A stretch of DNA of 64,000 nt from Coriobacteriia bacterium (GTDB lineage Bacteria; Actinomycetota; Coriobacteriia; Coriobacteriales; Atopobiaceae): NCBI GenBank assembly GCA_030530145.1, contig JAUMVN010000001.1, positions 124,001 to 188,000 of the forward strand, read 5' to 3'. A program made the translations under genes and the position numbers. Position 1 is the stretch's first letter. Each line of letters opens with the position of its first letter. Shown one piece after another: positions 31,827-50,662 of this stretch. A model generated the notes under the pieces. It did not search any database and was not told the origin of the DNA. It worked only from the letters and a program-made list of their open reading frames with translations.

Positions 31827-32049
31827 CGCCCCGTAAATCACGGTTGCAGCAACCGGCGCGGCGAGACCGCCCCGTAAATCACGGTTGCAGCAACGATGGG
31901 GAAGAAATCGCCCCTCAAACGACGGTTACAGCAATCGTTTGATGCTGCAACCGGCGTTTAGGGGGCGAATCTTTAGCGACGATTGCTGTAACCGCGATCT
32001 CGGGGGCGCCCGGCGCTGTCTGCTTGCTGCAACCGGGCTTTAGGGGGTG
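31827..32049. repeat. Palindromic six-unit cassette A (223 bp)
   Basis: Three direct 26-bp units at 31827, 31868 and 31909 and three inverted units at 31942, 31983 and 32024. Each unit is CGCCCC, about eight variable bases, then CGGTTGCAGCAA (one base variable). Spacers are 15 bp, the centre 7 bp, the period exactly 41 bp. It occupies the gap between the terminator at 31764-31797 and the queA stop (20 bp away). No coding sequence. Same geometry as the cassettes at 48923 and 50440. Confidence 0.95.
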
Positions 32050-32069
32050 GGGCGCGGTGTGAGAAGCGC

Positions 32070-33230
32070 TTACTTGATGAGCATGGCGTCGCCGAAGCTG
32101 AGGAATCGGTAGCGCTCGTCGATGGCGGCCTGGTAGGCGCCCATGACCTGCTCTCGCGTGGCGAAGGCCGAGACGAGCATCATGAGCGTGCTCCTCGGCA
32201 CGTGGAAGTTCGTGATCATGGCGTCGGCCACATGGAAAGAGGAGCCCGGCATGAGGTAGAGGTTCGTGGTGGCGTTCTCTCGGGCAACGATATCGCCCGG
32301 CTCCGGCCCGAAACGTCGCGCGGAGACTCCGCAGGGCTCCCCCGCGGCGCCCGCCTCCCACGCGCTCTCGAGCGAGCGGACCGAGGTCGTGCCCACGGCG
32401 ACGACGCGGTGCCCAGCCGCTTTCGTGGCGTGAACAGCGTCGACGACCTCCTGCGAGACGTGGTAGCGCTCGGTGTGCATGACGTGGTCGGTCGGGTCGT
32501 CCTCCGTCACGAGGCGGAACGTGTCGATGCCCACCTCGAGCTCGACGCAGGCCCACTGCACGCCCTTCTCGCGGATTCGCTCGATGAGCCCCGGCGTGAA
32601 GTGGAGCCCGGCCGTGGGGGCCGCCGCGGAGTGCTCCTCGCGCATGGCGTAGACGGTCTGGTACTTCTCGGGGTCGCCCTCGTACTCGGTGATGTAGGGC
32701 GGCAGCGGCACATGGCCCGCCGCGTGGATGGCCTCGTCGAGCGTCATCGGCGTGCCGTCGGCGCGCGTGCCCGCGGCGTCGAAGCGCACGAGCCGGCCGC
32801 CCTTGGAGTCCTCGACGAAGTCGACGATGGTGCCCGTGAGCACGACCGGGGCCGAGTCGGGCGCGTGCAGGCCGCCCGCACGGTACTCGATGACGATGCC
32901 CGGCTGCTTCAGGCGCTTGCCGGGGTTGACCAAACATTCCCACACATGGCCCATGGCGTCCACGTCCTCACGGCGCTTGAGCAGCAGCGTCTCGCAGACG
33001 CCGCCGGTGCCGCGCTTCTTGCCAACGAGGCGGGCGGGCAGGACGCGGGTCTTGTTGGCCACGACAAGGTCGCCCGGCTCGAGGAAGTCGGTGATGTCCG
33101 AGAAGGCCTTGTGCTCCACGTGGCCGTCCTCGCGGTCGAGGACGAGCAGGCGGCAAGAGTCGCGGGGCTCCGCAGGGGCCTGCGCGATGAGCTCGTCGGG
33201 CAGCGGGTAATCGAAATCGTCGGTGCGCAT
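32070..33230 (-). CDS. queA: S-adenosylmethionine:tRNA ribosyltransferase-isomerase
   Basis: 386-residue enzyme making epoxyqueuosine in tRNA from preQ1 and the ribosyl part of SAM. Characteristic DFDYPLPDELIAQAPAEPRD at the start, VVANKTRVLPARL, LPPYI, PTAGLHFT, and FHVPRSTLMMLVSAFA near the end. Family length is ~340-360; an inserted ~30-residue loop lies around GAAGEPCGVSARRFGPEPGD. ATG at 33230 has GAGAGGA ahead. It ends against cassette A. Confidence 0.96.
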   Translation of the reverse strand: MRTDDFDYPLPDELIAQAPAEPRDSCRLLVLDREDGHVEHKAFSDITDFLEPGDLVVANKTRVLPARLVGKKRGTGGVCETLLLKRREDVDAMGHVWECLVNPGKRLKQPGIVIEYRAGGLHAPDSAPVVLTGTIVDFVEDSKGGRLVRFDAAGTRADGTPMTLDEAIHAAGHVPLPPYITEYEGDPEKYQTVYAMREEHSAAAPTAGLHFTPGLIERIREKGVQWACVELEVGIDTFRLVTEDDPTDHVMHTERYHVSQEVVDAVHATKAAGHRVVAVGTTSVRSLESAWEAGAAGEPCGVSARRFGPEPGDIVARENATTNLYLMPGSSFHVADAMITNFHVPRSTLMMLVSAFATREQVMGAYQAAIDERYRFLSFGDAMLIK

Positions 33231-33365
33231 AGTAATCCTCTCGTCGTTTTCCGCGAACCAGTGTAGCGCGGCGAGAAGAACGCGGCGCGGCGCGCGCCCG
33301 AATGTGCCGCCTTGCTGGAAAGAAAGGCGGCACCAGCGGCCGCACCCCCGAGCCGAAGCAACTCG

Positions 33366-33413
33366 ACAAGAAAGGAGCAGGTCATAGACCTTGTGGGTCA
33401 TGACCTGCTCCTT
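33366..33413 (-). terminator. Terminator of the SDR gene
   Basis: Perfect 14-bp stem AAGGAGCAGGTCAT/ATGACCTGCTCCTT with minus-strand tail TTTCTTG, 27 bp past the SDR stop. Confidence 0.88.
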
Positions 33414-33439
33414 GAATGGCGAAATACCCAGCCCAGGGG

Positions 33440-34240
33440 CTACGGCCGCTGGCCCATGCCGCCCTCGAGGGTGACGGTTTCGCCGTTCATGTACTTGAAG
33501 TCAGGGCCGCAGAGCTGGACGACCACGCGGCCGATCTCCTTCTCGACGTCGCCGTAGTGGCCGGCAGGCGGCATGTGGACGTTGGCCTTGAAGGCGTCGG
33601 GGTAGGCGGCCTCGAAGTTCTCGAGCTGCGCGGTCCAGGCGAGCGGGCAGACGACGTTGACGTTGATGCCGTCCTTGCCCCACTCGTTGGCGGCCACGCG
33701 GGAAAGGCCGCGGATGCCCTCCTTGGCGGCGGCGTAGGAGCACTGGCCGTAGTTGCCGAAGAGGCCGGCGCCGGAGGCGAAGTTGACCACGGAGCCCTGG
33801 GTCTCCTTGAGGTAGGGGTAGGCCTTCTGCATGTAGAGGAACGCGGCGTAGAGGCCCGAGTAGATGGCCAGGTTGAACTGGTCCATGGTGTGGTCGGCGA
33901 TGGTCACGCCCGAGGCGCTGGCCTGCGCGTTGTTGACCACGGCGTCGATGCGCCCGAACTTCTCGATAGCCTTGTCGATGACGTTCTGGACGACGGCCTC
34001 GTTGTCCGCGCCGGCCGAGACGTCTGCCTGCACGGGCAGGACCTCGATGCCGTAGTCGGCCTCGAGCGACTCCTTGGCGGCCTCGAGCTTGGCCACGTTG
34101 CGGCCGGTGATGACGAGGTTCGCGCCCTCCTTGGCGAAGGCGATGTCGATGCCGTAACCGATGGAGCCGGCGCTGCCGTCCTTGAGCGTCGCCTTGCCGC
34201 CGCCGGTGACGATGACGGTCTTCCCAGTGAACAGGCCCAT
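33440..34240 (-). CDS. Short-chain dehydrogenase/reductase, hydroxysteroid-dehydrogenase-like
   Basis: 266-residue classical SDR. The cofactor motif is TGGG, then a ~10-residue insertion (KATLKDGSAG), then SIGYGI. ITGRN after beta2 (Arg) suggests NADP(H). The usual NNAG is NNAQ. The catalytic Ser is in NFASGAG, followed by SYAAAKEGI (Tyr/Lys). The insertion plus GLFGNYGQCSYAAAKEG and NVVCPLAWTAQLE recall gut-bacterial 12-alpha-hydroxysteroid dehydrogenases as I remember them; this is a family-level impression, not a database result. ATG at 34240, GGAGGC ahead. Single gene with a strong terminator. Confidence 0.85.
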   Translation of the reverse strand: MGLFTGKTVIVTGGGKATLKDGSAGSIGYGIDIAFAKEGANLVITGRNVAKLEAAKESLEADYGIEVLPVQADVSAGADNEAVVQNVIDKAIEKFGRIDAVVNNAQASASGVTIADHTMDQFNLAIYSGLYAAFLYMQKAYPYLKETQGSVVNFASGAGLFGNYGQCSYAAAKEGIRGLSRVAANEWGKDGINVNVVCPLAWTAQLENFEAAYPDAFKANVHMPPAGHYGDVEKEIGRVVVQLCGPDFKYMNGETVTLEGGMGQRP

Positions 34241-34397
34241 TATGTGCCTCCTTGTTTCGTCGGCTCCGAGCGCGGGCGCGCGGGCAAGCCGAATTTAGTG
34301 CGACACACCATAAAACGTGGGGGCGAATTGGGGAAGGGCCTCTCGGCAATCGGCCCAAACGGACGCGTCGGACGGCGATAGCGCAGGCGATCGCCCT

Positions 34398-35081
34398 CTA
34401 AGCGCCCGTATCTCCCCCGCCCTTCCGCGCGCGCTCCTCGGCCTTGCGGCGCTTGCGCTCGTCGCGCGCCTCATGCCGCTCCATGGCGGCCTCGGCCGCG
34501 GAGAAGCGGCAACCGCAGTAGTTCTGCCGGTACATGCCGAGCTCGCGGCTCTCGCGAGTTGCCTCCGGGTAGAAGGGCCGGAAGTCTTGCCAGACGGCCT
34601 CGAGCCCCTGCGCGGCGGCAGTCTTGGCAAGAAGCTCGCCGCAGTCGTCGAAGAGCTGGTAGGGCGAGACGGCGAGCGTGGTCGAGACGTGCGCGAAGCC
34701 CCGCTCGCGCGCGACCCGGCACGCCTCGGCGAGCCGCAGCGCGTAGCAGGCGCGGCACCGCGCGCGCCGGTCGAACCCGCGCGGCGAGACCGCGCGCTCC
34801 CAGGCCCCGCGGTCGTCGCCCGCAACCACAACGTCGACGTGGGCGACGTCGGCCGCCCACGCGCGGAGCGTCGAGAGGCGCAGCTCGTGCTCGGACACCG
34901 GCTGGATGTTCGGGTTCGTCCAGATGATCGTCGGCTCGAAGCCCTGCTCGCGCAGGAGCTTGACCGGCTCGAGCGAGCACGGCCCGCAGCAGGCGTGAAG
35001 AGCCAGGGGCACGCGGCCGCCCGCATGCCCCTGGCACTCGCTTACGTTAAATGAACCGCAGCTCACGGACCTATTACTCAC
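34398..35081 (-). CDS. queH: Epoxyqueuosine reductase QueH
   Basis: 227-residue Fe-S enzyme performing the last queuosine step, the non-cobalamin replacement for QueG (COG1636). Cys motifs HACCGPCS (N-terminal CC and C), CRACY in the middle, and YRQNYCGC towards the end are the expected cluster and metal ligands. The C-tail (RDERKRRKAEERARKGG) is basic. GTG at 35081 overlaps the SPFH gene stop by 8 bp; its SD is weak and later GTG codons (35066 or 35009 region) are possible. With tgt and queA it completes tRNA queuosine modification from salvaged preQ1. Confidence 0.9.
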   Translation of the reverse strand: MSNRSVSCGSFNVSECQGHAGGRVPLALHACCGPCSLEPVKLLREQGFEPTIIWTNPNIQPVSEHELRLSTLRAWAADVAHVDVVVAGDDRGAWERAVSPRGFDRRARCRACYALRLAEACRVARERGFAHVSTTLAVSPYQLFDDCGELLAKTAAAQGLEAVWQDFRPFYPEATRESRELGMYRQNYCGCRFSAAEAAMERHEARDERKRRKAEERARKGGGDTGA

Positions 35082-35982
35082 CGCCCTGCGGGTTCGGCGT
35101 CACGTGCGCGGCCACCTGCTGCTTATAGAAGTCGGCCGACGCGGCGAAGTCGCCCGGCAGCACGACAGACGAGGAACCCTTCGCGGCGAACGCCTCCATC
35201 ATGGACACCCACTGCGTGTACTCGAAGAGCCGGTTCGCCTCGGCGCTTGAGAGCTCGGAACCCTTGATGGTGTCGATGGACTCCTTGATGCCGCGGGCGA
35301 TGGCGATGCGCTGGTCCGCGATGCCCTTGCCCTCGGCGGCCATGGCCTCGGCCTTGGCCTGCGCGGCGATGACGGTCTTCGCGCGGGCGGCGTTGGCGTC
35401 GTTCTGCGCGGAGGCGAGGTTGTTCTTCGACGCGACGATGCGGTTCATCGACTCCTGGACCTCCTTCGGCAGGCGGATCGAGGTGATGAGGGTGGTCACG
35501 AGCACGTAGCCGTAATCGAGCATCTTCTTTGCCACGACCTCGTCGATGGAGGTGGCGATGGCGTCCTTCTCGGAGAAGACCTCGTCGAGCGTGCGGTTCG
35601 GAATCTGGCTGCGCAGGGCGTCGGCCAGGTAGTCCTTCATCTGCGCGACGGGGTCGGTGAGCGTATAGAAGCTCTTCCAGATGCCCGACTCCTCGCCGCC
35701 GTGGATGTTCGTCTGGTCCACGTGGTACTGGATGGACACGTCGAGCTCGATGGTCACGTTGTCGGAGGTCTTCGCGTCGAAGGTCATGTGCTCGTCCTCG
35801 GTCATGAGGTCGACGTCGTGGGTCATATCGACGAACGGCACCTTGACGTGGAAGCCGGGTCCGGCGATCCCCGCGAAGCGGCCCAGGCGCTCGATGATGG
35901 CCACGTGCTGCTGGCGCACGACGTAGCCGGTGGACAGGACGGTCGCGGCGACGACCACCGCGAGGACGATCAAGAGAATCAT
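35074..35982 (-). CDS. SPFH/band-7 membrane protein (HflC/paraslipin-like)
   Basis: 302 residues. One N-terminal membrane helix (residues 2-20) is followed by the SPFH domain (QQHVAIIERLGRFAGIAGPGFHVKVPFVD, ~25-185, ending LVTTLITSIRLPKEVQESMNRI), then an Ala/Lys/Glu coiled region (~195-245) for oligomerisation. Such proteins form membrane rings tied to lipid domains and protease control. ATG at 35982 follows AAGGAG at 10 nt; the longer N-terminus back to 36036 has no SD. No NfeD-type partner is adjacent; queH overlaps its stop, probably only by compaction. Confidence 0.9.
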   Translation of the reverse strand: MILLIVLAVVVAATVLSTGYVVRQQHVAIIERLGRFAGIAGPGFHVKVPFVDMTHDVDLMTEDEHMTFDAKTSDNVTIELDVSIQYHVDQTNIHGGEESGIWKSFYTLTDPVAQMKDYLADALRSQIPNRTLDEVFSEKDAIATSIDEVVAKKMLDYGYVLVTTLITSIRLPKEVQESMNRIVASKNNLASAQNDANAARAKTVIAAQAKAEAMAAEGKGIADQRIAIARGIKESIDTIKGSELSSAEANRLFEYTQWVSMMEAFAAKGSSSVVLPGDFAASADFYKQQVAAHVTPNPQGGE

Positions 35983-36089
35983 TGCGATTACGCTCCTTCG
36001 CATAGGGGACGGCGCGGGCAGCGCGCCTGGTTGCACCTAACTATACGGTGACGCCGTGCCGAATCCGTGACCGAATCCGTGACCTAGGC

Positions 36090-36626
36090 CTACGATTCCG
36101 TATCAGAGAGGAGCACGATGCCGAACTCCGCGTCGGCAACGTGCGTGCACGTCGGCTCGCGGACGATCTCGGCGGCCATGAGAAGGTCGCCGGCGCACCC
36201 CGACAGATGGGTCGCCGCGAGCGCGACGGCGAGCGCGGGGCGCCCGGCCGCCACGGCCAGCGCGGCGAGCGCCGCCGTCACCAGCACCGAGGGGGCGAGC
36301 AGCACGCAGACCTCCGCCGCCCTTCTCGCCACCGCGCCGTTCGCGCTCGTGTACAGGAAGGCGTCCTTGACGCCGAACGTCACGTGGGCGCCGGGCACGA
36401 GCAGCTTGAACGCCGCCGCGTGAACGAGTTCGTGGACGGGCAGCGCCGCGAGCGACCCCGCAACCAGCCAGATCGCCCACCGAAGCCCGAACGCCTCGGC
36501 GGCGCCCGCCGCGAACATGAGCGCGCAAGCAGCGGCGCCGGCGACCAGAAACGCCAGCGACCAGGCGACCATCCGGCCCCGCAGCGCCTCATCCGCGAGG
36601 ATGTCTATGTCGGCGATTTTTCTCAT
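36090..36626 (-). CDS. DUF3267-type putative membrane zinc metalloprotease
   Basis: 178 residues with four predicted membrane helices (~30-50, 55-78, 115-138, 140-160). The HExxH-like motif is PVHELVHAAAF (~77-87), with a possible third ligand in ATHLSGCAGDLLMAAEI, as in DUF3267 proteins (SpoIVFB/site-2-protease-like architecture). ATG at 36626 follows GGGTGG; it is divergent from metG, with 87 bp between starts. Substrate unknown. Confidence 0.78.
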   Translation of the reverse strand: MRKIADIDILADEALRGRMVAWSLAFLVAGAAACALMFAAGAAEAFGLRWAIWLVAGSLAALPVHELVHAAAFKLLVPGAHVTFGVKDAFLYTSANGAVARRAAEVCVLLAPSVLVTAALAALAVAAGRPALAVALAATHLSGCAGDLLMAAEIVREPTCTHVADAEFGIVLLSDTES

Positions 36627-36713
36627 GCCACCCAGATTACTCCGGCCGCCGCCCAATGTGGGATACTAAGCAGGTTGAAACCCGATTCAGGCGCAACGCA
36701 AAGGAGCAACGCG

Positions 36714-38747
36714 ATGCCCGAGACCCGCCCGACCTTCCCCAAGCGCGCCGTCGTCACCGGCGGCATGCCCTACGGCAACAAGAACCTGCACTTCGGCCAC
36801 ATCGGCGGCGTCTTCGTGCCCGCCGACTTCTTCGCCCGGTTCCTCCGCGACCGCATCGGCAAGAAGAACGTCCTGTTCGTCTCCGGCACCGACTGCTACG
36901 GCTCCCCCATCATGGAGGGCTACCGCAAGAAGGTTGAGAACGAGGGCTACGAGGGCACCATCTACGACTACGTGGGCGCCAACCACGCCGCCCAGAAGGC
37001 CGCGCTCGACGCCTACGAGATCAGCCTCGATATCTTCGAGGGCTCCGGCCTCGAGCCCGCGCGCACCTATCACCACAACCTGACCGACGACCTGCTGCGG
37101 CGCCTCCACGAGCGCGGCTACCTCACCAAGCGCTCCACGCGCCAGTTCTACGACGCGCAGGCCGGCACCTTCCTCAACGGGCGCCAGGTCATCGGCCGCT
37201 GCCCCGTGCGCGGCTGCAAGTCCGAGAAGGCCTACGCCGACGAGTGCGACCTCGGCCACCAGTTCGACCCCGAGGAGCTCATCGCCCCCGTCTCGCAGCT
37301 CACCGGCACCACGCCGGAGCTCCGCCCCGTCGACAACTGGTACTTCGACCTGCCGACGTTCCGCCCCGAGCTCGAGGCCCTCATGGACGAGTGGGACGCC
37401 GACCCGCAGGTCCGCGCCATCGTGACCAAGACCGTCCGCGAGTCGCTCGTCGACCCCGTCATCTACGTGCAGACCAAGTTCCGCGAGGCCTTCGACGCCG
37501 TCGAGGAGAAGCTCCCCGCCCACAGCCTCACCGAGGCCGAGGGCAACCAGCAGTCCTTCTCCGTGACCTTCGCCGACTGGGAGGCCCGCGACGAGGCGCG
37601 CGAGGTGCTCGACGCCGGCGGCGTGCGCTTCCGCACCGGCAAGTGCCTGCTGCCGTTCCGCATCACCGGCAATATCGAATGGGGCGTGCCCGCGCCCGAG
37701 CTCGAGGGCACGAAGGACCTCACCGTTTGGTGCTGGCCCGAGAGCCTCTGGGCCCCGATCAGCTTCACGCAGACGGCCCTCGGCGAGGACGAGAAGGCCG
37801 GCGGCGAGCGCTACTCGAGCTACGACTGGCGCGACTGGTGGTGCGCCGACGACGCGCGCGTCTACCAGTTCATCGGCCAGGACAACATCTACTTCTACTG
37901 CGTGGCGCAGCCGGCCCTCTGGGACGCGCTCGACTGGGGCCTCTTCCAGGACACGCCCATCGCCAACTACCACATCCTCTTTATGAACAAGAAGGCCTCG
38001 AGCTCCGGCGCCATCAAGCCGCCGATGGCCGCCGAGCTGCTGGACGTCTACACGCCCGAGCAGCTGCGCGCCCACTGGCTCTCGCTCGGGCTCGACCAGA
38101 AGGCCGTGAGCTTCAACCCCAAGCCCTTCGACACGAGCGTCTCGCACAAGGACAAGAAGACCGGCGAGGAGGTCCTCGTCAAGGACGACCCGCGCATCGT
38201 GGACCCGGCGCTCAAGGAGTCGGCGTTCCTCACGAACATCTTCAACCGCCTCGCTCGCAGCTGCTTCTACGGCGCGAACAACGTCTGCGGTGCCAAGCTC
38301 CCCGCGGCCGCGCCGCACGCCGAGGTCGTCGAAGCCTGCCGCAAGGCGACGCTCGACTTCGAGGCCGCGGCCCACGCCTTCGACGCCCACGGCGCCCTCG
38401 GCATCGCAGAGGAGCTAGCCCGCGCCGAGAACAAGCGCTGGGACGACGCGAGCAAGGCGGCCAAGGGCGACGACGAGGCCTACGCGCAGGCCCTCGCCGA
38501 CGCGTTCTGCGCGCTGCGCACGGTCACGCTGCTCATGCACCCCGCGGTCCCCGGCGGCTGCGAGAAGATCTGCGAGCACATGGGCTTTGACGCGGACATC
38601 TTCTTTAGCTGGGAGCACGCCTTCGAGGGCCCGGCCGAGCTCGCCGCGCTCGCAGGCGAGAAGCTTGAAGAGCACGCCATCGTGCCGCTGCCGCCTCGCT
38701 TCGACTTCTTCGAGAAGCACCCGAGCCAGGTGAAGAAGGGCAAGTAG
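36714..38747 (+). CDS. metG: Methionyl-tRNA synthetase-like class I tRNA ligase, divergent
   Basis: 677 residues. The HIGH signature is HFGHIGG (residues 22-28) after TGGMPYGNKNL; MetRS features include FVSGTDCYGSP and a Zn knuckle CPVRGC...CDLGH. The anticodon-binding helical domain (~430-640) follows, with FNRLARSCFYGANN. The KMSKS position reads FMNKKASSSGA (~425), lacking the usual second Lys-Ser order. No C-terminal tRNA-binding (TRBD) domain is present. ATG at 36714 follows AAAGGAG. If the window's organism has no other MetRS, this is the housekeeping enzyme; otherwise it is a paralogue with altered specificity. Confidence 0.85.
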   Translation: MPETRPTFPKRAVVTGGMPYGNKNLHFGHIGGVFVPADFFARFLRDRIGKKNVLFVSGTDCYGSPIMEGYRKKVENEGYEGTIYDYVGANHAAQKAALDAYEISLDIFEGSGLEPARTYHHNLTDDLLRRLHERGYLTKRSTRQFYDAQAGTFLNGRQVIGRCPVRGCKSEKAYADECDLGHQFDPEELIAPVSQLTGTTPELRPVDNWYFDLPTFRPELEALMDEWDADPQVRAIVTKTVRESLVDPVIYVQTKFREAFDAVEEKLPAHSLTEAEGNQQSFSVTFADWEARDEAREVLDAGGVRFRTGKCLLPFRITGNIEWGVPAPELEGTKDLTVWCWPESLWAPISFTQTALGEDEKAGGERYSSYDWRDWWCADDARVYQFIGQDNIYFYCVAQPALWDALDWGLFQDTPIANYHILFMNKKASSSGAIKPPMAAELLDVYTPEQLRAHWLSLGLDQKAVSFNPKPFDTSVSHKDKKTGEEVLVKDDPRIVDPALKESAFLTNIFNRLARSCFYGANNVCGAKLPAAAPHAEVVEACRKATLDFEAAAHAFDAHGALGIAEELARAENKRWDDASKAAKGDDEAYAQALADAFCALRTVTLLMHPAVPGGCEKICEHMGFDADIFFSWEHAFEGPAELAALAGEKLEEHAIVPLPPRFDFFEKHPSQVKKGK

Positions 38748-38765
38748 CCCCCAAGTCGCCTCATC

Positions 38766-38803
38766 GGCCGCCCGGAACCCACGTCCGGGCGGCCTTCTTC
38801 TTT
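38766..38803 (+). terminator. Terminator of metG
   Basis: GGCCGCCCGGA/TCCGGGCGGCC stem with TTCTTCTTT, 19 bp past the stop. Confidence 0.92.
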
Positions 38804-38895
38804 GCCCAGCGAACCTGACGGCGCCCGACCCGTTCGATTCGGCACCGTGATCCCCAAGCCAGCGCAACAATCGCAACCCCTCAGAAGGAGCCCCC

Positions 38896-40353: not shown

Positions 40354-40405
40354 CCGCCCTCCCTGGCAAGAGGCACGGCTCTTCCTTTGGCCCTTACGCG
40401 AACAA

Positions 40406-40447
40406 AGCGCCGCGGACACGCTGGTCCGCGGCGCTTCTCGCTTCTTT
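40406..40447 (+). terminator. Terminator of the hydrolase-GNAT gene
   Basis: AGCGCCGCGGA/TCCGCGGCGCT stem (40406-40435) followed by TCTCGCTTCTTTT. It lies before the convergent cyclase gene. Confidence 0.85.
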
Positions 40448-40460
40448 TACATCCCCGTCG

Positions 40461-41213: not shown

Positions 41214-41338
41214 GGTCGCTTCCTTTCGACGGCGTGGCACTTAGCTTATGGAAAGGATAACGGCAATAAACCCCCGGTCACGCACGGCATTTGCTGCAAC
41301 TGGCTATCGGAGAAGCCGGGAGCCAGTTGCAGGGGGCC

Positions 41339-42739: not shown

Positions 42740-42748
42740 AGGCGCTCC

Positions 42749-43441
42749 TTAGCCGTGGACGCGGTAGCCGACGCCGCGAACCGTCTCGATGAGGTCGCTC
42801 GCGTCGCCGAGCTTGGCGCGGATCTGCTGGACATGGACGTCGACCGTGCGGGAGCCGCCGTCGAAGTCCCAGCCCCACACGCGCTGGAGCAGGGTCTCGC
42901 GCGAGAAGACGACACCCGGGGACTTCATGAGGAAGCTCAGGAGGTCGAACTCGCGCATCGTGAGCTGCAGCTCGCGCCCGTCGAGCGTCGCCTCGCGCCG
43001 GTCGGGCCACACCGAGACCGGCCCGACGGTCAGGCACTCGGACTCGGCCTGCGCAGGCTCGCGCCCCGCGCGGCGCAGCAGCGCGCGCGTGCGGCTCACC
43101 ATCTCCATCATCCCGAAAGGCTTGGAGAGGTAGTCGTCGGCGCCCCCGTCGAGGGCGCGGACCTTATCGAGCTCGGTGTCCTTGGCCGTGAGCATCATCA
43201 CGGGGACGTTGGCGAGCCCGGGCATCTTGCGGATACGCGCCAGGATGTCGAGGCCGTCGGCGTCCGGGAGCATGATGTCGAGAAGCACGGCGTCGGGCGT
43301 CCGCTCGGCGCACGCGCGCCGGAACTCGGCGTCGTTCGCGCAGCCCACGGCCTCGATGCCGCCCTGTCCTAAGGCGTAGACCGTAAGCTCGCGGATGTTC
43401 TTGTCGTCCTCGACGTAATAGACCACGTTCGATGCTCCCAT
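42749..43441 (-). CDS. phoP: OmpR/PhoB-family response regulator
   Basis: 230 residues. The receiver domain (VVYYVEDDKNIREL, phospho-acceptor Asp in AVLLDIMLPDADG, Lys in DDYLSKPF) is followed by a winged-helix output domain (REFDLLSFLMKSPGVVFSRETLLQRVWGWD...RTVDVHVQQIRAKL). ATG at 43441 is used; GTG at 43450 would add three residues. Placement between phoU and the kinase gene makes it the likely PhoB/PhoP of the phosphate regulon. Confidence 0.93.
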   Translation of the reverse strand: MGASNVVYYVEDDKNIRELTVYALGQGGIEAVGCANDAEFRRACAERTPDAVLLDIMLPDADGLDILARIRKMPGLANVPVMMLTAKDTELDKVRALDGGADDYLSKPFGMMEMVSRTRALLRRAGREPAQAESECLTVGPVSVWPDRREATLDGRELQLTMREFDLLSFLMKSPGVVFSRETLLQRVWGWDFDGGSRTVDVHVQQIRAKLGDASDLIETVRGVGYRVHG

Positions 43442-43456
43442 CGTGTGCACGCTTCC

Positions 43457-44149
43457 TTACTGCTCGAGCGTGTCCGGCTGGCTTGCCTTCGGCGCGACGG
43501 TGTGCTCGCCGGTCACGCGGAAGATGGCCCACGCGGCCACGCGCTTGGCCAAATCGCCGATGCGCTCGAAGTACTTGGCGACCATCAGCAGCTCGGGCAG
43601 GTACTGGGCGGAGGACTTGCCGTCGCGGATGAGCTTGACGAGCTTCGCGTGGACCTCCCAGTACACCGAGTTTACATTCTCGTCGGCCTCGATGACGCTC
43701 TGGGCGAGCTCGACGTCGGAATTGATGAAGGCGTCCACCGCGTCGCCGACCATCTTCGCGCACATCTCGCTCATGGAGCCGACCTCGGCCGAGACCTTGG
43801 AGGCGGCCTTCTCGGGGAGCTCCTCGACGAGGAAGGCGACGTCGCGCGTCATCCCGTCGATGTGCGAGAGGTCGGAGACGATGCGGAACGCGCCCGAGAC
43901 GAGGCGCAGGTCGTCGCCGATGAGGGGCTGCTGGAGCAGCATCGCGTCGAGGCAGCTGTCCTCGATCGCCGAGCGCAGGCGGTCCTCGTCCTTACGGCCT
44001 CCGGCCACGCCCTCCTTGGCGCCCTCGTCGCCCCTCGCGGCGAGGCCCGCCGCGAGGATGTCGGAGACGCACTTCTCCTTGAGGCGGTCGATGAGCTCCT
44101 TGATGCCGCCGAGCTGGCTGGTGAACTTGGTGCGGGTCTGCATAACCAT
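43457..44149 (-). CDS. phoU: Phosphate signalling protein PhoU
   Basis: 230 residues in two three-helix repeats, the PhoU fold. It links the PstSCAB transporter to the histidine kinase and keeps the response off in high phosphate. An ~18-residue insertion (LAARGDEGAKEGVAGGRKDEDRLR in part, ~35-58) lies in the first repeat. Starts 1 bp after the pstB stop. Confidence 0.93.
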   Translation of the reverse strand: MVMQTRTKFTSQLGGIKELIDRLKEKCVSDILAAGLAARGDEGAKEGVAGGRKDEDRLRSAIEDSCLDAMLLQQPLIGDDLRLVSGAFRIVSDLSHIDGMTRDVAFLVEELPEKAASKVSAEVGSMSEMCAKMVGDAVDAFINSDVELAQSVIEADENVNSVYWEVHAKLVKLIRDGKSSAQYLPELLMVAKYFERIGDLAKRVAAWAIFRVTGEHTVAPKASQPDTLEQ

Positions 44150-44150
44150 A

Positions 44151-44957
44151 TCAGCTGAACCTTCCTGAGAGATATTCCTGCGTGCGGGTCTGCTTGGGGT
44201 TTCCGAACAGCTCCTTCGTGGGGCCGCTCTCGATGAGCTCGCCCAGGTAGAAGAAGCAGGTCTTGTCGGCCACGCGCGCGGCCTGCTGCATGTTGTGGGT
44301 CACGACGACCACGGTGTGGTCGCAGGCGAGCTCGCCCATGAGCTGTTCCACCTGCAGGGTCGAGATCGGGTCGAGCGCCGAGGTGGGCTCGTCCATGAGG
44401 AGCACCTCGGGGTTCGTGGCGAGGGCGCGCGCGATGCACAGGCGCTGCTGCTGGCCGCCCGAGAGCCCGAGGCCTGACTGGTCGAGCTTGTCCTTGACCT
44501 CGTCCCAGAGCGCGGCGCGCGTGAGGCAGCGCTCCACGATCTCGTCGCCCTCGGACCGCGTGAGGCGCTTCATGCGGGCGGGTCCGTAGAGGATGTTGTC
44601 GCGGATGCTCATCGGGAAGGGGTTCGGGTGCTGGAACACCATGCCGACGTGCACGCGCAGGGCGTTCGCGTCCATCTTGAAGATATCGGAGCCGCGGAAC
44701 TCGATCGTCCCCTCGGTGCGCACTCCCTCGACGAAGTCGCACATGCGGTTGAAGGTGCGCAGGAGCGTGGACTTGCCGCAGCCGGACGGACCGATGAAGG
44801 CGGTCGCACGCTTCTCCGGGATCTCCAGGTCGATCTTTTTCAGGGCCTGGAAGTCCGAATACCAGAGGTCGAAGCCGCGGATGCCGAGAGCGACGTCGGC
44901 GCCGTCGATCCCGCGGTGGTCGGCCTGGGTGAACTCTTTCTGCATTGTCTTCTCCAT
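44151..44957 (-). CDS. pstB: Phosphate ABC transporter ATP-binding protein (second pstB)
   Basis: 268-residue PstB ATPase powering PstCA. Walker A GPSGCGKST, LSGGQQQR signature, Walker B VLLMDEP and H-loop VVVTHNMQQ are all intact. It overlaps the stop of the first pstB by 1 nt (TGATG). Compared with the first copy it keeps the common N-terminus (FDLWYSDFQALKKIDLEIP). Confidence 0.95.
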   Translation of the reverse strand: MEKTMQKEFTQADHRGIDGADVALGIRGFDLWYSDFQALKKIDLEIPEKRATAFIGPSGCGKSTLLRTFNRMCDFVEGVRTEGTIEFRGSDIFKMDANALRVHVGMVFQHPNPFPMSIRDNILYGPARMKRLTRSEGDEIVERCLTRAALWDEVKDKLDQSGLGLSGGQQQRLCIARALATNPEVLLMDEPTSALDPISTLQVEQLMGELACDHTVVVVTHNMQQAARVADKTCFFYLGELIESGPTKELFGNPKQTRTQEYLSGRFS

Positions 44958-45781
44958 CAGCCGAACCTGCCGGTCAGGTAGTCGACGAGCTTCTGGTCCT
45001 TAGGGGCCAAGAAGATCTGGCGCGTCTCGCCGAACTCGATCATGTCGCCCATATAGAAGAAGGCGGTCCGGTCGGAGACGCGGGTGGCCTGCTCCATGTT
45101 GTGCGTGACGATGGCGACGCAGATCCCCGAGTCGGCGATGTCGCGGATCGTCTCCTCGACCGCGAAGGTCGAGATCGGGTCGAGCGCCGAGCAGGGCTCG
45201 TCGAAGAGCACCACGTCGGGCTTCATGGCCAGGGTGCGCGCGATGCACAGGCGCTGCTGCTGGCCGCCCGAGAGCGCGAGGGCGCTCTGGTCGAGCTTGT
45301 CCTTGACCTCGTCCCAGAGGGCCGCCTGCGAGAGGCTCTTCTCGACGAGCTCGTCCGCGGACGCCTTGTCGGCCACGCGGCCATGGCGCTTGGGCGCGAA
45401 GAGGATGTTCTCGCGGATCGACTTGCGGAAGGGCGTCGGCTGCTGGAAGACCATGCCGATGGACTTGCGCAGCTCGAAGAGGTTCTCATCCTTGGTGTTG
45501 ATGTCGTGGTCGTGGTAGATGATCTGCCCACCGACGACGCACTTGGGGATCTCGCGGTTCATGAGGTTCAGGCAGCGCAGGAAGGTCGACTTGCCGCAGC
45601 CCGAGGGCCCGATAAGGGCCGTGACGGTGCCCTTGTCGAAGGAGAGGCTCGTCGGGTGCAGCGACTCCTTCGTGTAGTTGTACTTGACGGTGACGTCGTT
45701 GGTCTCGAGCAGGTGCGCCGAGGTGACCGTGGGGGCGGCGGGCGTGCCGGCGGGGGTCTGGTTTCTCATGGTCTCGCTCAT
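44957..45781 (-). CDS. pstB: Phosphate ABC transporter ATP-binding protein (first pstB)
   Basis: 274 residues with intact GPSGCGKST, LSGGQQQR, VVLFDEPCSALDPIST and VTHNMEQATR. Clearly a paralogue of the following gene, not a recent copy: the N-terminal beta strands differ (LETNDVTVKYNYTKESLHPTSLSF), and so do the middle segments (PKRHGRVADKASADELVEK). ATG at 45781 overlaps pstA (ATGA). Tandem pstB pairs occur in several Gram-positives; different expression or heterodimers are possible. Confidence 0.95.
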   Translation of the reverse strand: MSETMRNQTPAGTPAAPTVTSAHLLETNDVTVKYNYTKESLHPTSLSFDKGTVTALIGPSGCGKSTFLRCLNLMNREIPKCVVGGQIIYHDHDINTKDENLFELRKSIGMVFQQPTPFRKSIRENILFAPKRHGRVADKASADELVEKSLSQAALWDEVKDKLDQSALALSGGQQQRLCIARTLAMKPDVVLFDEPCSALDPISTFAVEETIRDIADSGICVAIVTHNMEQATRVSDRTAFFYMGDMIEFGETRQIFLAPKDQKLVDYLTGRFG

Positions 45782-46734
45782 TCGCTCGTCATCTTCTTTG
45801 CCAGGAACTTGCCGAGGACGCGCGCCAGCACGTTGAACAGCAGCACGCAGATGATAAGGACCGCGGCCGTGCCCCAGACGATCTCGTCGTTGCCGGGAGA
45901 GGGCTCCATCTTCAGCTTCCAGATATGGACCGCGAGGGTCTCGGCAGGGCGGAAGATGTTCCAGGGGTTGCGCGGGCTCGCGAGGTTCAGGCTCGCGAAG
46001 TTGATGTTCACGGCGGCGGAGCCGGACGTGAAGATAAGGGCCGCGGCCTCGCCGAACACGCGGCCGGCCGAGATCACGACGCCCGTGACGATGGCGGGCA
46101 TGGCCGCGGGGAGAAGCACGTGCAGGGTCGTCTCCCAGCGCGTGAGGCCCATGGCGAGGCCTGCGTCGCGCTGGCTGCGCGGGACGTCCTCGAGCGCCCG
46201 CTGGATCACGCGGACGAGGATGGGGATGTTGAACATCGTGAGCGCCATCGCGCCGGCGAGAATCGAGATGCCCCAGCCGAGCGTGACCACGAAGAAGAGC
46301 GAGCCGAACATGCCGACGACGATGGAGGGCAGGCTCGAGAGCGTCTCGATGGCGGTGGAGGCCGCCTTGGTCACCCAGTTGTCGGGCGCGTACTCGACGA
46401 GGAAGATGGCCGCCCCGAGGCTGATCGGCACGCTGATGAGCAGCGTGATGATCAGCATGTAGAAGCTGTCGAAGAGCTCCGAGCTGATGCCGGGGTTCTC
46501 CGCGGCGGTCGGCGCCGTGGTGAGGAAGCCCGGCGCGAGCGCCTTGCCGAGGCCCTTGACGAGGATGAACGCGACGATGGCGCCCAGGAGGAAGAGCACG
46601 AACGCCACGATGACGGTGAGGATGCCCGTCGCAACGCGGTCCTGCTTGCCGATCCGCCTGGCGTGCGCGTCGAGGTCGACGCCCAGGCCGCCGGACTCGA
46701 CGGAGGCCGCCTTCGAGGTGGTGATGCTAGCCAC
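45778..46734 (-). CDS. pstA: Phosphate ABC transporter permease PstA
   Basis: 318 residues, six membrane helices. The EAA-like loop is DAGLAMGLTRWETTLHVLLPAAMPAIVTG. GTG at 46734 overlaps the pstC stop by 8 bp. A charged ~35-residue N-tail precedes TM1. Confidence 0.95.
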   Translation of the reverse strand: MASITTSKAASVESGGLGVDLDAHARRIGKQDRVATGILTVIVAFVLFLLGAIVAFILVKGLGKALAPGFLTTAPTAAENPGISSELFDSFYMLIITLLISVPISLGAAIFLVEYAPDNWVTKAASTAIETLSSLPSIVVGMFGSLFFVVTLGWGISILAGAMALTMFNIPILVRVIQRALEDVPRSQRDAGLAMGLTRWETTLHVLLPAAMPAIVTGVVISAGRVFGEAAALIFTSGSAAVNINFASLNLASPRNPWNIFRPAETLAVHIWKLKMEPSPGNDEIVWGTAAVLIICVLLFNVLARVLGKFLAKKMTSE

Positions 46735-47629
46735 GGTCCTTCGCCCCCTTGCTGCCGATGAGGTGGATGATCAGGATGAAGAAGAGCGACATGCCCATGA
46801 GCAGCAGGCCGAGCGCCCACAGCGCGTGGTACTGCACCGAGCCGGTGGTGGCGTTCGCGAAGCCCGAGGTCAGCGCCGTCGTGAGCGTGGCCGCCGGGGA
46901 AAGAAGCCCGGCAGGCATGATCTTCTCGACGCCGCCGATGACCATCTGGACGGCGAGGGTCTCGCCGAAGGCGCGCGTCATGCCGAGGATGACCGCGGTC
47001 ATGAGGGAGGGCAGCGCGGACTTGAGGACCACGTGCCAGACGGTCTGCCAGCGGGTGCAGCCGAGGGCATAGGAGCCCTCGCGGTACTGGTTCGGCACCG
47101 CGGCGAGCGCGTCGATGGAGAGCGTGGTCACGGTCGGCAGGATCATGACGGCCAGGACGATGGCGCCCGAGAGGATGCCCGCGCCCGTGCCGGCCGCGTC
47201 GCCGAAGACCGCTCGCATCGCAGCGTTGACGACGGTGAGGCCGATGAGGCCGTAGACGACCGAGGGGATGCCGACGAGCAGCTCGACGAGGGGCTGGAAG
47301 ACCTTCCGGCCGAAGCCCGGGCGCACCTCCACGACGAAGATGGCGGAGCCGAGCGCGACCGGCAGCGTGAAGAGCGTGGAGAGCACCATGACGCCGAAGG
47401 AGGTGACGATCAGGGGCAGCGCGCCGTACTTGCCGTCGGAGGGGACCCAGCTCGTCCCGGTGATGAAGGCCCCGAAGTCGATGCCGTCGACGAAGAACGC
47501 CGAGAGGCCCTGCTGGGCGACCATCACGATGAGGGTCACGACGATGACGGCCACGAGGGCGACGCACGCCCCGGTGAGGCCCAGGCCCACGTTCTCCAGG
47601 CGGCGCTTCGGCAGCAGTTGCTTAGCCAT
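46727..47629 (-). CDS. pstC: Phosphate ABC transporter permease PstC
   Basis: 300 residues, six membrane helices. The cytoplasmic coupling loop is EGSYALGCTRWQTVWHVVLKSALPSLMTA. ATG at 47629 follows AAAGG at 7 nt. It forms the channel with PstA. Confidence 0.95.
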   Translation of the reverse strand: MAKQLLPKRRLENVGLGLTGACVALVAVIVVTLIVMVAQQGLSAFFVDGIDFGAFITGTSWVPSDGKYGALPLIVTSFGVMVLSTLFTLPVALGSAIFVVEVRPGFGRKVFQPLVELLVGIPSVVYGLIGLTVVNAAMRAVFGDAAGTGAGILSGAIVLAVMILPTVTTLSIDALAAVPNQYREGSYALGCTRWQTVWHVVLKSALPSLMTAVILGMTRAFGETLAVQMVIGGVEKIMPAGLLSPAATLTTALTSGFANATTGSVQYHALWALGLLLMGMSLFFILIIHLIGSKGAKDRG

Positions 47630-47654
47630 TAAGCGACCTTTCTGTCTAGGGACA

Positions 47655-47698
47655 TAAAACGAGGTGCCGCCCGAAACGTAAGCTCCGGGCGCCACCTC
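47655..47698 (-). terminator. Partial terminator between pstS and pstC
   Basis: Minus-strand stem GAGGTGGCGCCCG/CGGGCGGCACCTC followed by GTTTTATG, placed so that pstS mRNA would exceed pstCAB mRNA. Confidence 0.7.
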
Positions 47699-47712
47699 GA
47701 GGGAAGGGAAGG

Positions 47713-48648
47713 CTACTTGGAAGAGACCTTGCCGTCGGCGTCCTTGGACACCTTCATGTCGGAGACGGGGATGAAGCCCTCCTCCTCGACGAGCGAGCCC
47801 TGGACCTCATCGGAGAGCATGAAGTCGATGAACGCCTGGGTGGCCTCGTCGGCGTCGGCGGCGGTGTACATGTGCTCGTAGGCCCAGATGTTGAAGTCGC
47901 CGCTGCAGACGTTCTCGGCGGTCGGCTCGACGCCGTCGACCTTGAGGGCCTTGAACTTGGTGTCGTCGAAGTAGGAGAAGGCGAGGTAGGAGATGGAGCC
48001 CTCGGTGGCCTGGATCTTCTCGACGACGGTGCCGGAGGAGTCCTCCTCGGCCACAGGGGCGAAGGTGTCCGGGGCCTTCTCGCCGGCCAGGACGGCGGCC
48101 TCGAAGGTGGCGCGGGTGCCGGAACCGGCCTTGCGCTCGATGACCTGGATCTTGCCGGCGGTGCCGCCGACCTCGGACCAGTCGGTGATGGCGCCGGTGA
48201 AGATGCCCTTGAGCTGCTCGGTCGTGAGGCCGTCGACGTCGACGGAGGAGTTCACGATCGGGCCCATGCCGACGACCGCGACGGTGTTGTCGGTGAGCTT
48301 GGCGGCGTCCGCGGCCTCGAGCTTCTCCTCAGCGAACACGTCGGAGCGGCCGATCTGGGCCTTGCCGTCCTTGACGTCCGAGAGGCCCTGGCCGGAGCCG
48401 CCGCCGGTGATGGCGACGGTCACGTCGGGGTAGGCGTCCTCGAACTTGGTCGCGGCGGACTCGACGAGCTTCTGGAAAGAAGTGGCGCCGGAGCAGTTGA
48501 CGGTGCCGGAGACGGAAGCGGCGTCGGAGCCGGACTCGGAGTTGCCGGAGCCTCCGCAGCCGACGAGGCCGAGGCCGGCGACCGCGGCGAGCGTGCCGCC
48601 GAAGCCGGCGACGAACTGACGACGAGAGAGGCTATCGAGCTTGGACAT
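47713..48648 (-). CDS. pstS: Phosphate-binding lipoprotein PstS
   Basis: 311-residue solute-binding protein. The signal has a twin-arginine-like SRRQFVAGFGG and lipobox GLGLVGC, so it is probably exported (perhaps by Tat) and lipid-anchored at Cys32 or nearby. The mature part has phosphate-contact motifs GATSFQKL, GGGSGQG and RKAGSGTRATFE. ATG at 48648 follows GGAAGGAG. First gene of the pst run. Confidence 0.95.
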   Translation of the reverse strand: MSKLDSLSRRQFVAGFGGTLAAVAGLGLVGCGGSGNSESGSDAASVSGTVNCSGATSFQKLVESAATKFEDAYPDVTVAITGGGSGQGLSDVKDGKAQIGRSDVFAEEKLEAADAAKLTDNTVAVVGMGPIVNSSVDVDGLTTEQLKGIFTGAITDWSEVGGTAGKIQVIERKAGSGTRATFEAAVLAGEKAPDTFAPVAEEDSSGTVVEKIQATEGSISYLAFSYFDDTKFKALKVDGVEPTAENVCSGDFNIWAYEHMYTAADADEATQAFIDFMLSDEVQGSLVEEEGFIPVSDMKVSKDADGKVSSK

Positions 48649-48713
48649 GGATCTCCTTCCAATGGATTGCCGGCGCCCCGCACGCATGCTGGCTTCCGGC
48701 CGTGTCAAGGAGC

Positions 48714-48719
48714 ATCCTA
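48714..48719 (-). promoter_or_regulatory. Candidate -10 of the pst operon
   Basis: Minus-strand TAGGAT 66 bp before the pstS ATG. No -35 hexamer is seen; instead TTGTAAGC motifs begin 15 bp upstream, as for an activator-dependent promoter. Confidence 0.4.
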
Positions 48720-48733
48720 TGGCCCGCCCCGAG

Positions 48734-48893
48734 CTTACAAAGCGACATTCGTCGACGCTTACGGACGCCTGATTGCGGCTTACATTGGCTTAACATTCGC
48801 GCCGATTTCGATTACCGCGCGGTTACGTCAGGCGCTCTACCTGCTGGCTTACAAAGCGACGGGCATTCCATCGGCTTTGTAAGCCGCCTTACG
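48734..48893 (-). promoter_or_regulatory. Pho-box-like repeat cluster upstream of pstS
   Basis: CTTAC (GTAAG on the operon strand) recurs at plus-strand positions 48734, 48758, 48779, 48848 and 48888, plus CTTAAC at 48789. The core, TTACATTGGCTTAACATT (48780-48797), repeats ACATT with an 11-bp period, the spacing of PhoB/PhoP boxes. GCTTACAAAGCGAC occurs twice. Inferred binding site of the regulator encoded at 42749-43441. Confidence 0.5.
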
Positions 48894-48922
48894 TTCGGCG
48901 CCCGCCCCGCAGCGCCGCACCC

Positions 48923-49145
48923 CGCCCCTCAATGTGCGGCTGCAGCAATGGAACGTGTCTTGCCGCCCCTCAGATGACGGTTGCAGCAACACGGCGCCTC
49001 TTGCCGCCCCTCAGATGACGGTTGCAGCAATCCAACGTTGCTGCAACCGTCTTTTAGGGGGCGAGAAGCCCCGCTCTGCAGCTGCAGCCGCGCTCAAAGG
49101 GGCGGCATGACGGGCCCTATTGCTGCAACCGTTATTAAGAGGGCG
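48923..49145. repeat. Palindromic six-unit cassette B (223 bp)
   Basis: Direct units at 48923, 48964 and 49005; inverted units at 49038, 49079 and 49120. Same 26-bp unit, 15-bp spacers, 7-bp centre (TCCAACG) and exact 41-bp period as cassette A. The two middle direct units are identical to each other. It ends 9 bp from the stop codon of the frameshifted nuclease-like gene. Confidence 0.95.
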
Positions 49146-49154
49146 AGCGCTCGG

Positions 49155-50158
49155 CTAGACTACATTTCCGGCTCGCTCGAGCTCCCGGTAAAGCTCGATA
49201 TGCCTCAGCTTCTGACGGTACTCATACTCGGGGGAGCGATGGCGCCGAGGATAGCCCGCCTCAGCACGGGCAGCAGCGACGATATCCTCCATGTAGTTGA
49301 TGTTGCGATACAGCTCTCGGTTGATGCGGTACTCGGAGATGCCCATGGCCTTGAGCTCGTTTCCACGCACGGTGTCGGAAAGAACGCCTTCGCGCGTCAT
49401 GTGCGTCTCTTCGCCGTCGTACTCGAAGGCGACGGGGTTGGCCCCTGACCCCTCGTACGGGGCAATAAGGATATCCGGTTTGCGCAGGACCTTATTGCCA
49501 GAGCCGAGCCGACCAACCGCAAGAGGCTCGTTCATGGAAAGAAGCTTGAGGCCGTAACCTTTCTTCTTCGCGGGCAGGCAAAGCCTGAGCGCGAGCTTGG
49601 TCTCACGCGGAGAGGCCGAGCCGGGAAGGACAAGCGCCGCCGCGCGCCTCAGGGCCTTAACGCCATCGGCGCCCTTAAGCTCCCCAAGAAACGCCTTGAG
49701 CCGATCGGGATCCGTCAACGGGCGCGAACGTTGGACCAGGCCTCCATCGCGACCCGGCGCCAAGGAATAGGTGCCCATGAATTCGCACAGCACAGCACAA
49801 CAACGAGCTCAAGCTCGGAAAGGCACGTGGCGAGCTGGAGCGCCGTCAGTTCGGGGCCGCAGCACCACAGGCCTCTCCTCAACTGAAAGACGGATCCGAC
49901 AGGCAGCGACGAACCGAACACATGAGAAATGTAAGAGGCCTGATGGCGGGCCCCGCCGTGGTCAGAAGTAACGAACTCAAGAGGCTCCCCGGCGCGGCGC
50001 AGCGCCGAGCTCTCGCACATAAGCTCGCGAACCGTGAGCGCGTCGACCGGACGCCCCGGCGCGCAGAGCGCCGTCGTGTTCGTCGGTCGCTCAACGAGCT
50101 CAAGCTCCGGGTGGCGAAGCAGGCGCAGCGCTGTTTTATGTGAGAGCAGGTTATCCAT
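49155..50158 (-). pseudogene. Frameshifted AbiEi/DUF559-like nuclease-fold gene
   Basis: Two frames make one ~332-residue protein. The first (from ATG 50158, MDNLLSHKTALRLL) runs to ~49790. The second continues with LCEFMGTYSLAPGRDGG to TAG at 49155. The break sits in three tandem pentamers, GTGCT-GTGCT-GTGCG (49784-49798); removing one pentamer gives 999 nt, a clean open frame. The N part resembles the AbiEi-like middle region of actinobacterial proteins. The C part (KPDILIAPYEG...VAFEYDGEETH...RGNELKAMGI) resembles a DUF559/PD-(D/E)xK endonuclease core. No SD precedes the ATG; CAGACA-17-TAGTTA lies 12 bp upstream, so a leaderless mRNA is possible. May be dead or phase-variable. Confidence 0.8.
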
Positions 50159-50439
50159 AGGCAGACGATAACTAATCGGGAGCTCCTATGGTGTCTGACA
50201 TGCGATTTCTCTAGAGTTGTCTAACCGAATTCTGCCGGAATTCTTCCCGAGTTTTCAACATTGCCAGGTAGTTGCTCCGAGGAAGAAGCCTGATAAGAAG
50301 TCCGTCCGCGAGCCGCGAGGCCGCTCACCCTCCGAACCGCAACCGTTCAACCGACGCCCTCCACAGCCCCGCCACAAACGAACACCCTGCAAGGAATTCT
50401 TACAAAGAGGCCTGAACGAATGCGTCGGAAATTCGTCGT

Positions 50440-50662
50440 CGCCCCTCTGATGACGGTTGCAGCAACCCGCGTCCTCTACCCGCCCATCAGATGACGGTTG
50501 CAGCAAAGCGACAGTTCTTGTTGCCCCCTAAAGTGCGATTGCAGCAGTCCATCGTTGCTGCAACCGTCGTTTAGGGGGCAAGAAGCCCCGCCCTGCAGCT
50601 GCAACCGAGCTCAAAGGGGCAACTCAGCGGGACCAATTGCTGCAACCGTCACTAAGAGGGCG
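50440..50662. repeat. Palindromic six-unit cassette C (223 bp)
   Basis: Direct units at 50440, 50481 and 50522; inverted units at 50555, 50596 and 50637; identical geometry to A and B. The spacer between inverted units 1 and 2 (AGAAGCCCCGCCCTG) differs from that of B by one base, so B and C are closer relatives. It lies between the divergent nuclease-like gene and the marR gene. The preceding 50159-50439 holds only a GAATTC-NNNN-GGAATTC palindrome (around 50227) and the putative promoter of the nuclease-like gene. Confidence 0.95.

Follow-up and report, generated by a model that had tools for sequence, protein, structure and literature searches.

Mirror-image arrays of a 26-bp unit with constant 41-bp spacing at gene ends of a Coriobacteriia genome, candidate sites for a DNA-binding protein

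Repetitive extragenic palindromic (REP) sequences, with the bacterial interspersed mosaic elements (BIMEs) and REP doublets forming hairpins (REPINs), are the described systems closest to the elements reported here. Genes for REP-associated tyrosine transposases (RAYTs) occur with flanking inverted REPs (PMC2817692), the spacers of REP dimers mostly vary from 20 to 100 bp (PMC3733652), and the REPINs of Pseudomonas fluorescens SBW25 show preferred REP distances of 71 and 110 bp and tandem clusters, 18% of the REPs being singlets (PMC3116915). The elements of this study are cassettes of a 26-bp unit, three of which lie in a 64,000-nucleotide stretch (the window; positions 124,001 to 188,000 of contig JAUMVN010000001.1) of the draft genome of a Coriobacteriia bacterium (GCA_030530145.1). 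Like BIMEs and REPINs (PMC2817692, PMC3116915, PMC3733652), they are short, lineage-specific, extragenic mirror repeats that are dispersed, lie mostly behind genes, and have hairpin potential; a RAYT-type gene is also present in their genome. They differ in that the unit is neither palindromic nor tagged, the units run direct then inverted instead of alternating, there is one fixed centre and an exact 41-bp period, no singlets occur, and the RAYT-type gene stands beside another repeat.

The unit was searched for as CGCCCC-N8-CGGTTGCAGCAA (26 bp), with the reversed pattern as control. The window search with up to 3 mismatches returned 18 units (0–3 mismatches, 0.14 units expected), all inside the three cassettes W1, W2, and W3 (Table 1), and this number was reached in 0/100 shuffles. 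All three cassettes showed the unit order + + + − − − with steps of 41/41/33/41/41 bp. The initial annotation had described three six-unit cassettes of 223 bp with these steps, and each of the 18 units was found where it had placed them.

The search was extended to the draft genome (2.47 Mb, 57 contigs, completeness estimate 97.5%). With up to 2 mismatches, 43 + 35 matches were found versus 0 + 1 for the reversed control. Each of the 78 belongs to a cassette or to a half-cassette that a contig end truncates, and no lone unit occurs at this threshold in the whole draft genome. With up to 3 mismatches, there were 49 + 54 matches versus 8 + 7 for the control. Among the 100 of these 103 matches that were listed (three 3-mismatch units of the window were not among them), 5 are out of phase or outside arrays, compared with 15 matches of the control. 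Fourteen stretches around the matches were fetched and the units aligned in register, which gave 18 cassettes with a visible centre and about 100 units; the unit statistics were drawn from 97 of them.

The centre step is 33 bp in 18/18 cassettes, and the step within halves is 41 bp in 62/63 cases, the single exception being 40 bp at C54:15567. Three of the 97 units, all in cassette G1 and with 4–5 mismatches, were kept solely for being in phase; without them, the half-step is 41 bp in 59/60 cases. The number of units is less constant. Of the 16 complete cassettes, nine contain six units, arranged as 3+3 in seven, 4+2 in one, and 2+4 in one; six contain five units and one contains four, the shorter arrangements being 2+3, 3+2, and 1+3. 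A half contains 1–4 units, and the halves are unequal in 9/16. Every six-unit cassette measures 223 bp, including the 4+2 and 2+4 forms with a shifted dyad, and cassette G2 may hold a decayed sixth unit in phase (by eye). Since five- and four-unit cassettes exist, the six-unit form of 223 bp is the mode, the commonest rather than the universal form, and the 41/33 spacing is the law. Of the free variation elsewhere in the genome that the initial annotation had set against its own proposal, only variation in unit number was found.

The 16 cassettes were aligned in 37 spacer/centre columns and 104 unit columns, and a tree was calculated with FastTree. Parsimony required at least 214 changes in the spacer/centre columns, 120 of them on terminal branches, and 197 changes in the unit columns on the same tree. 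Mean identity between cassettes in the spacer/centre columns was 0.35, and one indel only, a 1-bp deletion, was present there. At a neutral ratio of 1 indel per 10 substitutions, 21 indels are expected overall (P = 1e-8) and 12 on terminal branches (P = 8e-5). The corresponding values are P = 3e-4 and 0.017 at a ratio of 1:20, and P = 0.0065 and 0.09 at 1:30. The conclusion that spacing is under selection depends on this ratio, an assumed value and not the organism's own. The proposal that the geometry is kept while the spacers diverge has held, with 62/63 and 18/18 constant steps beside at least 214 substitutions and one indel; as in phased arrays, the spacing is constant independently of the spacer sequence.

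The cassette tree contains two related pairs, W2/W3 and G2/G3. W3 is the closest relative of W2 (76% identity in the spacer/centre columns), and no recent identical copies were found among the 16 aligned cassettes, the best pairs sharing 76% in the spacers. The positional homology of the spacers is slight, at 0.342 for the same position and side, 0.318–0.326 otherwise, and 0.277 for shuffled letters, and the spacers therefore look like decayed parts of one 41-bp monomer. By eye, some are GGCAAGAA-like, with a faint shared composition.

The unit itself is strongly conserved. Positions 5, 16, and 23 are invariant in 97/97 units and positions 2, 3, 4, and 22 are conserved in 96/97; the consensus starts with C/T-GCCC and ends with CAGCAA. 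Among the eight bases initially called variable, positions 7 and 8 are indeed nearly free, whereas positions 9, 10, and 11 are A in 88, 84, and 80 of the 97 units. The outer flanks show little conservation except for a G at position −1 (24/35). The near-invariant bases indicate sequence recognition rather than pairing alone. The small palindrome TTGC-A-GCAA, which the initial annotation saw at the end of each unit, is intact in only 36/97 units, and one of the three double changes across its four pairs keeps pairing. Mostly broken and with a single compensated change, this palindrome is not what is conserved. The fold energy of the consensus is −0.9 kcal/mol for 26 nt and −6.3 kcal/mol for 41 nt.

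Three possibilities had been offered at the outset: a nucleoprotein-assembly site, a non-autonomous element, or a large RNA cruciform. The invariant unit bases and the fixed spacing favour the first. We propose, tentatively and at somewhat less than an even chance, that the cassettes now function as symmetric arrays of candidate sites for one DNA-binding protein. One sequence-specific and probably lineage-specific protein would bind each 26-bp unit, every 41 bp. Because 41 bp is about four helical turns, the sites of one half would lie on one face of the DNA, and the two rows, head to head at the fixed 7-bp centre, may form one nucleoprotein complex at the gene end. That the complex acts as a boundary, or in DNA topology, at the 3′ ends of genes is no more than a guess. 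We infer the protein ligand, its binding to double-stranded DNA, the cooperation of the rows, and the role of the complex. A symmetric row of sites for one protein would explain together the invariant bases, a spacing that stays fixed while the spacers drift, and the lack of single units or single halves.

Iteron-type parS/parC rows are multi-site partition or operator arrays. On the proposed reading, the cassettes resemble them as rows of sites for a single protein with a fixed helical spacing. They differ in that about 18 copies are spread over the chromosome at gene ends and in that every copy has a mirror axis. It is conceivable, though we doubt it more than we believe it, that the cassettes represent a nucleoprotein system not described before, in which one protein would occupy two mirror rows on one DNA face every four turns. 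About 18 gene ends of one lineage would then carry boundary or topology elements, placed between transcription units, whose spacing is frozen by selection while the spacers drift.

Several points weigh against the protein-array proposal. Three of the 97 units, those of G1, were admitted through phase alone (59/60 otherwise). The indel ratio is an assumed one, and the terminal-branch test fades at 1:30 (P = 0.09). Some of the geometry could be inherited from a single ancestral array. The match between the innermost units, L1 and R1, is closer than that of other pairs, which a pure protein-site model does not predict. With the family seen in a single genome, there is no conservation between species to draw on. 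The protein, mobile-element, and RNA explanations are not mutually exclusive.

The position of the cassettes was determined with gene calls from a simple home-made codon-bias script, partly corrected from open frames. Contigs C8, C13, C20, and C50 end inside cassettes; the arrays thus appear to break the assembly, and the 41-bp phase lets contig pairs be proposed. The ends of C13 and C20 overlap by 9 nt and together would make up an in-phase 3+3 cassette; a further cassette is probably split between C8 and C50. With these two inferred joins counted as single loci, the neighbouring genes are convergent at 7 loci, co-directional at 10, and divergent at 1. The excess of convergent over divergent loci has a one-sided p of 0.035, and the counts are 5 to 1 without the two joins. 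At 14/18 loci, the distance from a stop codon to the start of the array is at most 45 bp, or the two overlap; the exceptions are W3, C, G2, and M. One array overlaps the last 26 bases of a gene. In co-directional gaps, the cassette is closer to the stop than to the next start in 8/10 (p = 0.055). The placement is thus extragenic, mostly downstream, and convergent or co-directional, as in REPs.

This location at gene ends also agrees with an RNA function, in which the transcribed cassette would form a long hairpin, interrupted by symmetric internal loops, for termination, protection, or processing of the mRNA at the gene 3′ end. We consider such a function unlikely. It fits the 14/18 loci close to stops, as given by the home-made gene calls. 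Compared with shuffles, the three cassettes of the window fold with z-scores between −9.6 and −11.1; however, any inverted repeat folds well. The inner stem L1/R1 is paired in 89.7% of cells and has 10 pairs changed on both sides. The outer stem is paired in 82.0% of cells, and two control pairings, both incompatible with a nested hairpin, reach 85.6% and 84.1%. Cells changed on both sides number 24 (inner), 25 (outer), and 21 and 20 (controls). Measured by paired cells and by cells with changes on both sides, all four pairings exceed 500/500 column shuffles; in pairs changed on both sides, the outer pairing and one control are not clearly above shuffles (104 and 40 of 500 reach them). Since the control pairings score this high, most of the covariation is likeness of the units within a cassette.

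A modest inner-pair excess speaks for the hairpin. L1/R1 identity is above the mean of the other pairs in 11/16 cassettes (Wilcoxon p = 0.014), with p = 0.057 against L1/L2 alone and p = 0.098 against R1/R2; a within-cassette permutation of the R units over all mirror pairs gave p = 0.028. This excess could come from selection for a hairpin, or equally from palindrome correction during replication. Only 7/35 flanks of the inner stem carry a U-rich tail, counted as 5 or more T among 8 bases, and 4 have TTTT. The cassettes are therefore not standard terminators, and the GC-rich stem with U tract of intrinsic terminators is not their pattern. In addition, the halves are unequal in 9/16 complete cassettes, and an RNA loop need not be exactly 15 nt. 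An RNA function thus explains the position and the inner-pair excess, and leaves the spacing and the invariant unit bases, which pairing does not account for.

W1 is additional DNA compared with the same gene junction in relatives. The junction measures 337 bp here and 8–128 bp in the 8 of 10 relatives in which it was measurable (47 bp in relative G084). The queA gene at this junction has 86% identity to its best public match, and the nearest records are Atopobiaceae, Thermophilibacter, and Olsenella. In the congener (G001), the 128-bp junction between the upstream gene and queA has a palindrome of its own, 30 bp long and with about 26 nt in the loop (by eye). W1 alone gave clean empty sites; none were found for the neighbourhoods of cassettes K and H in four relatives, where conservation is too loose.

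A mobile element may well be the origin of the cassettes, which explains their lineage restriction and dispersal. We find it rather unlikely that they are REPIN/BIME-like non-autonomous elements without host function, copied as a unit either by a RAYT-kind Y1 transposase, with the single strand in its folded form as substrate, or by some other enzyme. We are similarly sceptical of the corresponding account of the geometry, in which a copy must have the correct fold or spacing to multiply. The cassettes are lineage-specific, dispersed, and intergenic, they add DNA at the conserved W1 junction relative to eight relatives, and they form a tree with related pairs. Their convergent or co-directional placement is that given for REPs in PMC3733652. 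Against such copying, there are no singlets (up to 2 mismatches) and no recent identical copies, and terminal branches, too, are almost free of indels, which speaks against unconstrained decay of inserted copies.

One Y1-family gene (PF01797, E = 9e-12) with a helix-turn-helix-like C-terminus was the single match in the genome. It is flanked by inverted arrays of a different short repeat, GTCCCCAAAGCTCTCAAAYGAGAG, which has a period of 35 bp and 18 matches genome-wide at up to 3 mismatches. The centre steps of this family vary (60, 63, 88, 95, 99, and 331 at six loci, some partners having 4–6 mismatches). A kinship of the two repeats was tempting by eye and was rejected, because 188/2000 shuffles reach the similarity of the two consensus units. 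A REP-type system is therefore present in this genome, to which the cassettes only doubtfully belong. As the genome is an estimated 97.5% complete, a second RAYT gene could be missing. No RAYT gene flanked by cassette units was seen, the unit is not an imperfect palindrome, and the GTAG/CGTC end tag that PMC3733652 gives for REPs is absent, CGTC appearing by eye only inside the reverse complement of the consensus. The cassettes thus lack three defining REP features (palindromic unit, tag, and cognate RAYT) and share one, the extragenic position behind genes.

Miniature inverted-repeat transposable elements (MITEs) are similar in being short intergenic inverted-repeat elements at dispersed loci. 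The cassettes differ from them in their high divergence with fixed spacing, in having no consistent target duplication, and in that no relative with separated ends was seen. The 16 complete cassettes showed no consistent target-site duplication at their edges, although in E and in N a stretch of 8 nt is common to both flanks, at different offsets. No autonomous partner sharing the ends was present among the matches listed at up to 3 mismatches in the draft assembly. The non-autonomous element of the initial annotation is retained as a possible origin.

Multi-site transposon ends are rows of long mirror-oriented sites at fixed spacing, and the cassette rows resemble them. The halves might be relic Mu/Tn7-like rows of transposase sites and the cassettes miniature derivatives with fused ends, an idea we regard as very improbable. 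No copy with its halves apart around a gene was found among the matches listed (up to 3 mismatches), and no search was aimed at Mu/Tn7-type transposase genes. Consistent target duplications are lacking here as well, and relics would not keep their spacing on terminal branches.

The cassettes were found in one genome only. The two-unit pattern with 3 mismatches matched 1/140 genomes of the family, namely this one. A 141-position sequence model was convincing only for this genome among the same number of family genomes and matched 1/395 genomes of the order at E = 1e-4. Two weak model matches in other family genomes (E = 0.001 and 0.003) lacked the arrangement, looked coding-like by eye, and were dropped. 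The centre pattern with 2 mismatches matched 1/396 genomes of the phylum, with 10 forward and 10 reverse matches in this genome, and recovers at most about 10 of its own 18 cassettes. The three genome sets overlap, and both model searches used stricter filters. These searches, and those of phages, plasmids, and IMG/VR, are sequence-based, and the same geometry with another sequence would escape them.

Rfam gave no match to a family already described, the other finding that the initial annotation had named as counting against it. W2, the one cassette tried, had no match in phages or plasmids. The exact centre pattern had none in IMG/VR, a weak test because this pattern fits only 2 of the genome's own cassettes without mismatch. 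Rfam found no RNA family in the window except two tRNAs, and on 701 bases around cassette K it gave sub-threshold microRNA-type matches only, which were taken as chance. No description of this cassette family was found in the open-licence literature. The cassettes behave as a lineage-restricted extragenic repeat whose standing as a REP is doubtful.

Other elements were observed as well. A second family has a conserved core of about 50 bp (AGTTCCGCATGAGCCGAAGG..CACTTAATGTG..CCTTCGTGCGA..GGACTG) between inverted arms, with a window copy at 8531-8657. The arms are 21–47 nt long with at most 1 mismatch, and their sequence differs at every locus (7/7 copies, in 3 of 21 genomes); five copies are in this genome, one in the congener (G001), and one in another genus (G084). 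A conserved stretch beside cassette K was considered as a tRNA and rejected; ARAGORN found none, and the stretch is a hairpin element of this second family. At 62545-62654 of the window, two 43-nt arms that are 93% complementary and separated by 24 nt form an inverted repeat. By eye, the overlapping frames 49155-49793 and 49715-50158 (−) look like one gene broken by a frameshift, and they had no Pfam or NCBIfam match at E = 0.01. W2 and W3, the cassettes directly on either side of this broken-looking gene, form one of the two closest pairs.

Table 1. Cassettes, units, and neighbouring genes in the window, and the RAYT-type locus elsewhere in the genome (ORF, open reading frame).
Feature	Position	Strand	Remark
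Cassette W1	31827..32049	.	3+3 units, between convergent genes
W1 unit L3	31827..31852	+	pattern match
W1 unit L2	31868..31893	+	pattern match
W1 unit L1	31909..31934	+	pattern match
W1 unit R1	31942..31967	-	pattern match; preceded by the 7-bp centre
W1 unit R2	31983..32008	-	pattern match
W1 unit R3	32024..32049	-	pattern match
W1 neighbour ORF	ends 31732	+	weak SMC/coiled-coil-like similarity
W1 neighbour queA	ends 32070	-	named by NCBIfam
Cassette W2	48923..49145	.	3+3 units, 9 bp past stop of 49155-49793 (-) ORF
W2 unit L3	48923..48948	+	pattern match
W2 unit L2	48964..48989	+	pattern match
W2 unit L1	49005..49030	+	pattern match
W2 unit R1	49038..49063	-	pattern match
W2 unit R2	49079..49104	-	pattern match
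W2 unit R3	49120..49145	-	pattern match
W2 neighbour, PBP-like gene	47713-48708	-	W2 lies upstream of it
Cassette W3	50440..50662	.	3+3 units, upstream of MarR-family gene
W3 unit L3	50440..50465	+	pattern match
W3 unit L2	50481..50506	+	pattern match
W3 unit L1	50522..50547	+	pattern match
W3 unit R1	50555..50580	-	pattern match
W3 unit R2	50596..50621	-	pattern match
W3 unit R3	50637..50662	-	pattern match
MarR-family gene beside W3	starts 50808	+	
RAYT-type Y1 transposase with 35-bp repeat arrays	C52:19339-20552, also C2, C33, C44 and others		

Bacterial intergenic repeats are usually recognised by their sequence. In these cassettes the spacers keep their length and not their letters, which turns selection on helical phasing into a concrete, testable claim. 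Should a protein be found, the cassettes would offer a small model system in which proteins line up in order at the ends of genes. If they are instead a mobile element, its replication would be one that tolerates almost no indels.

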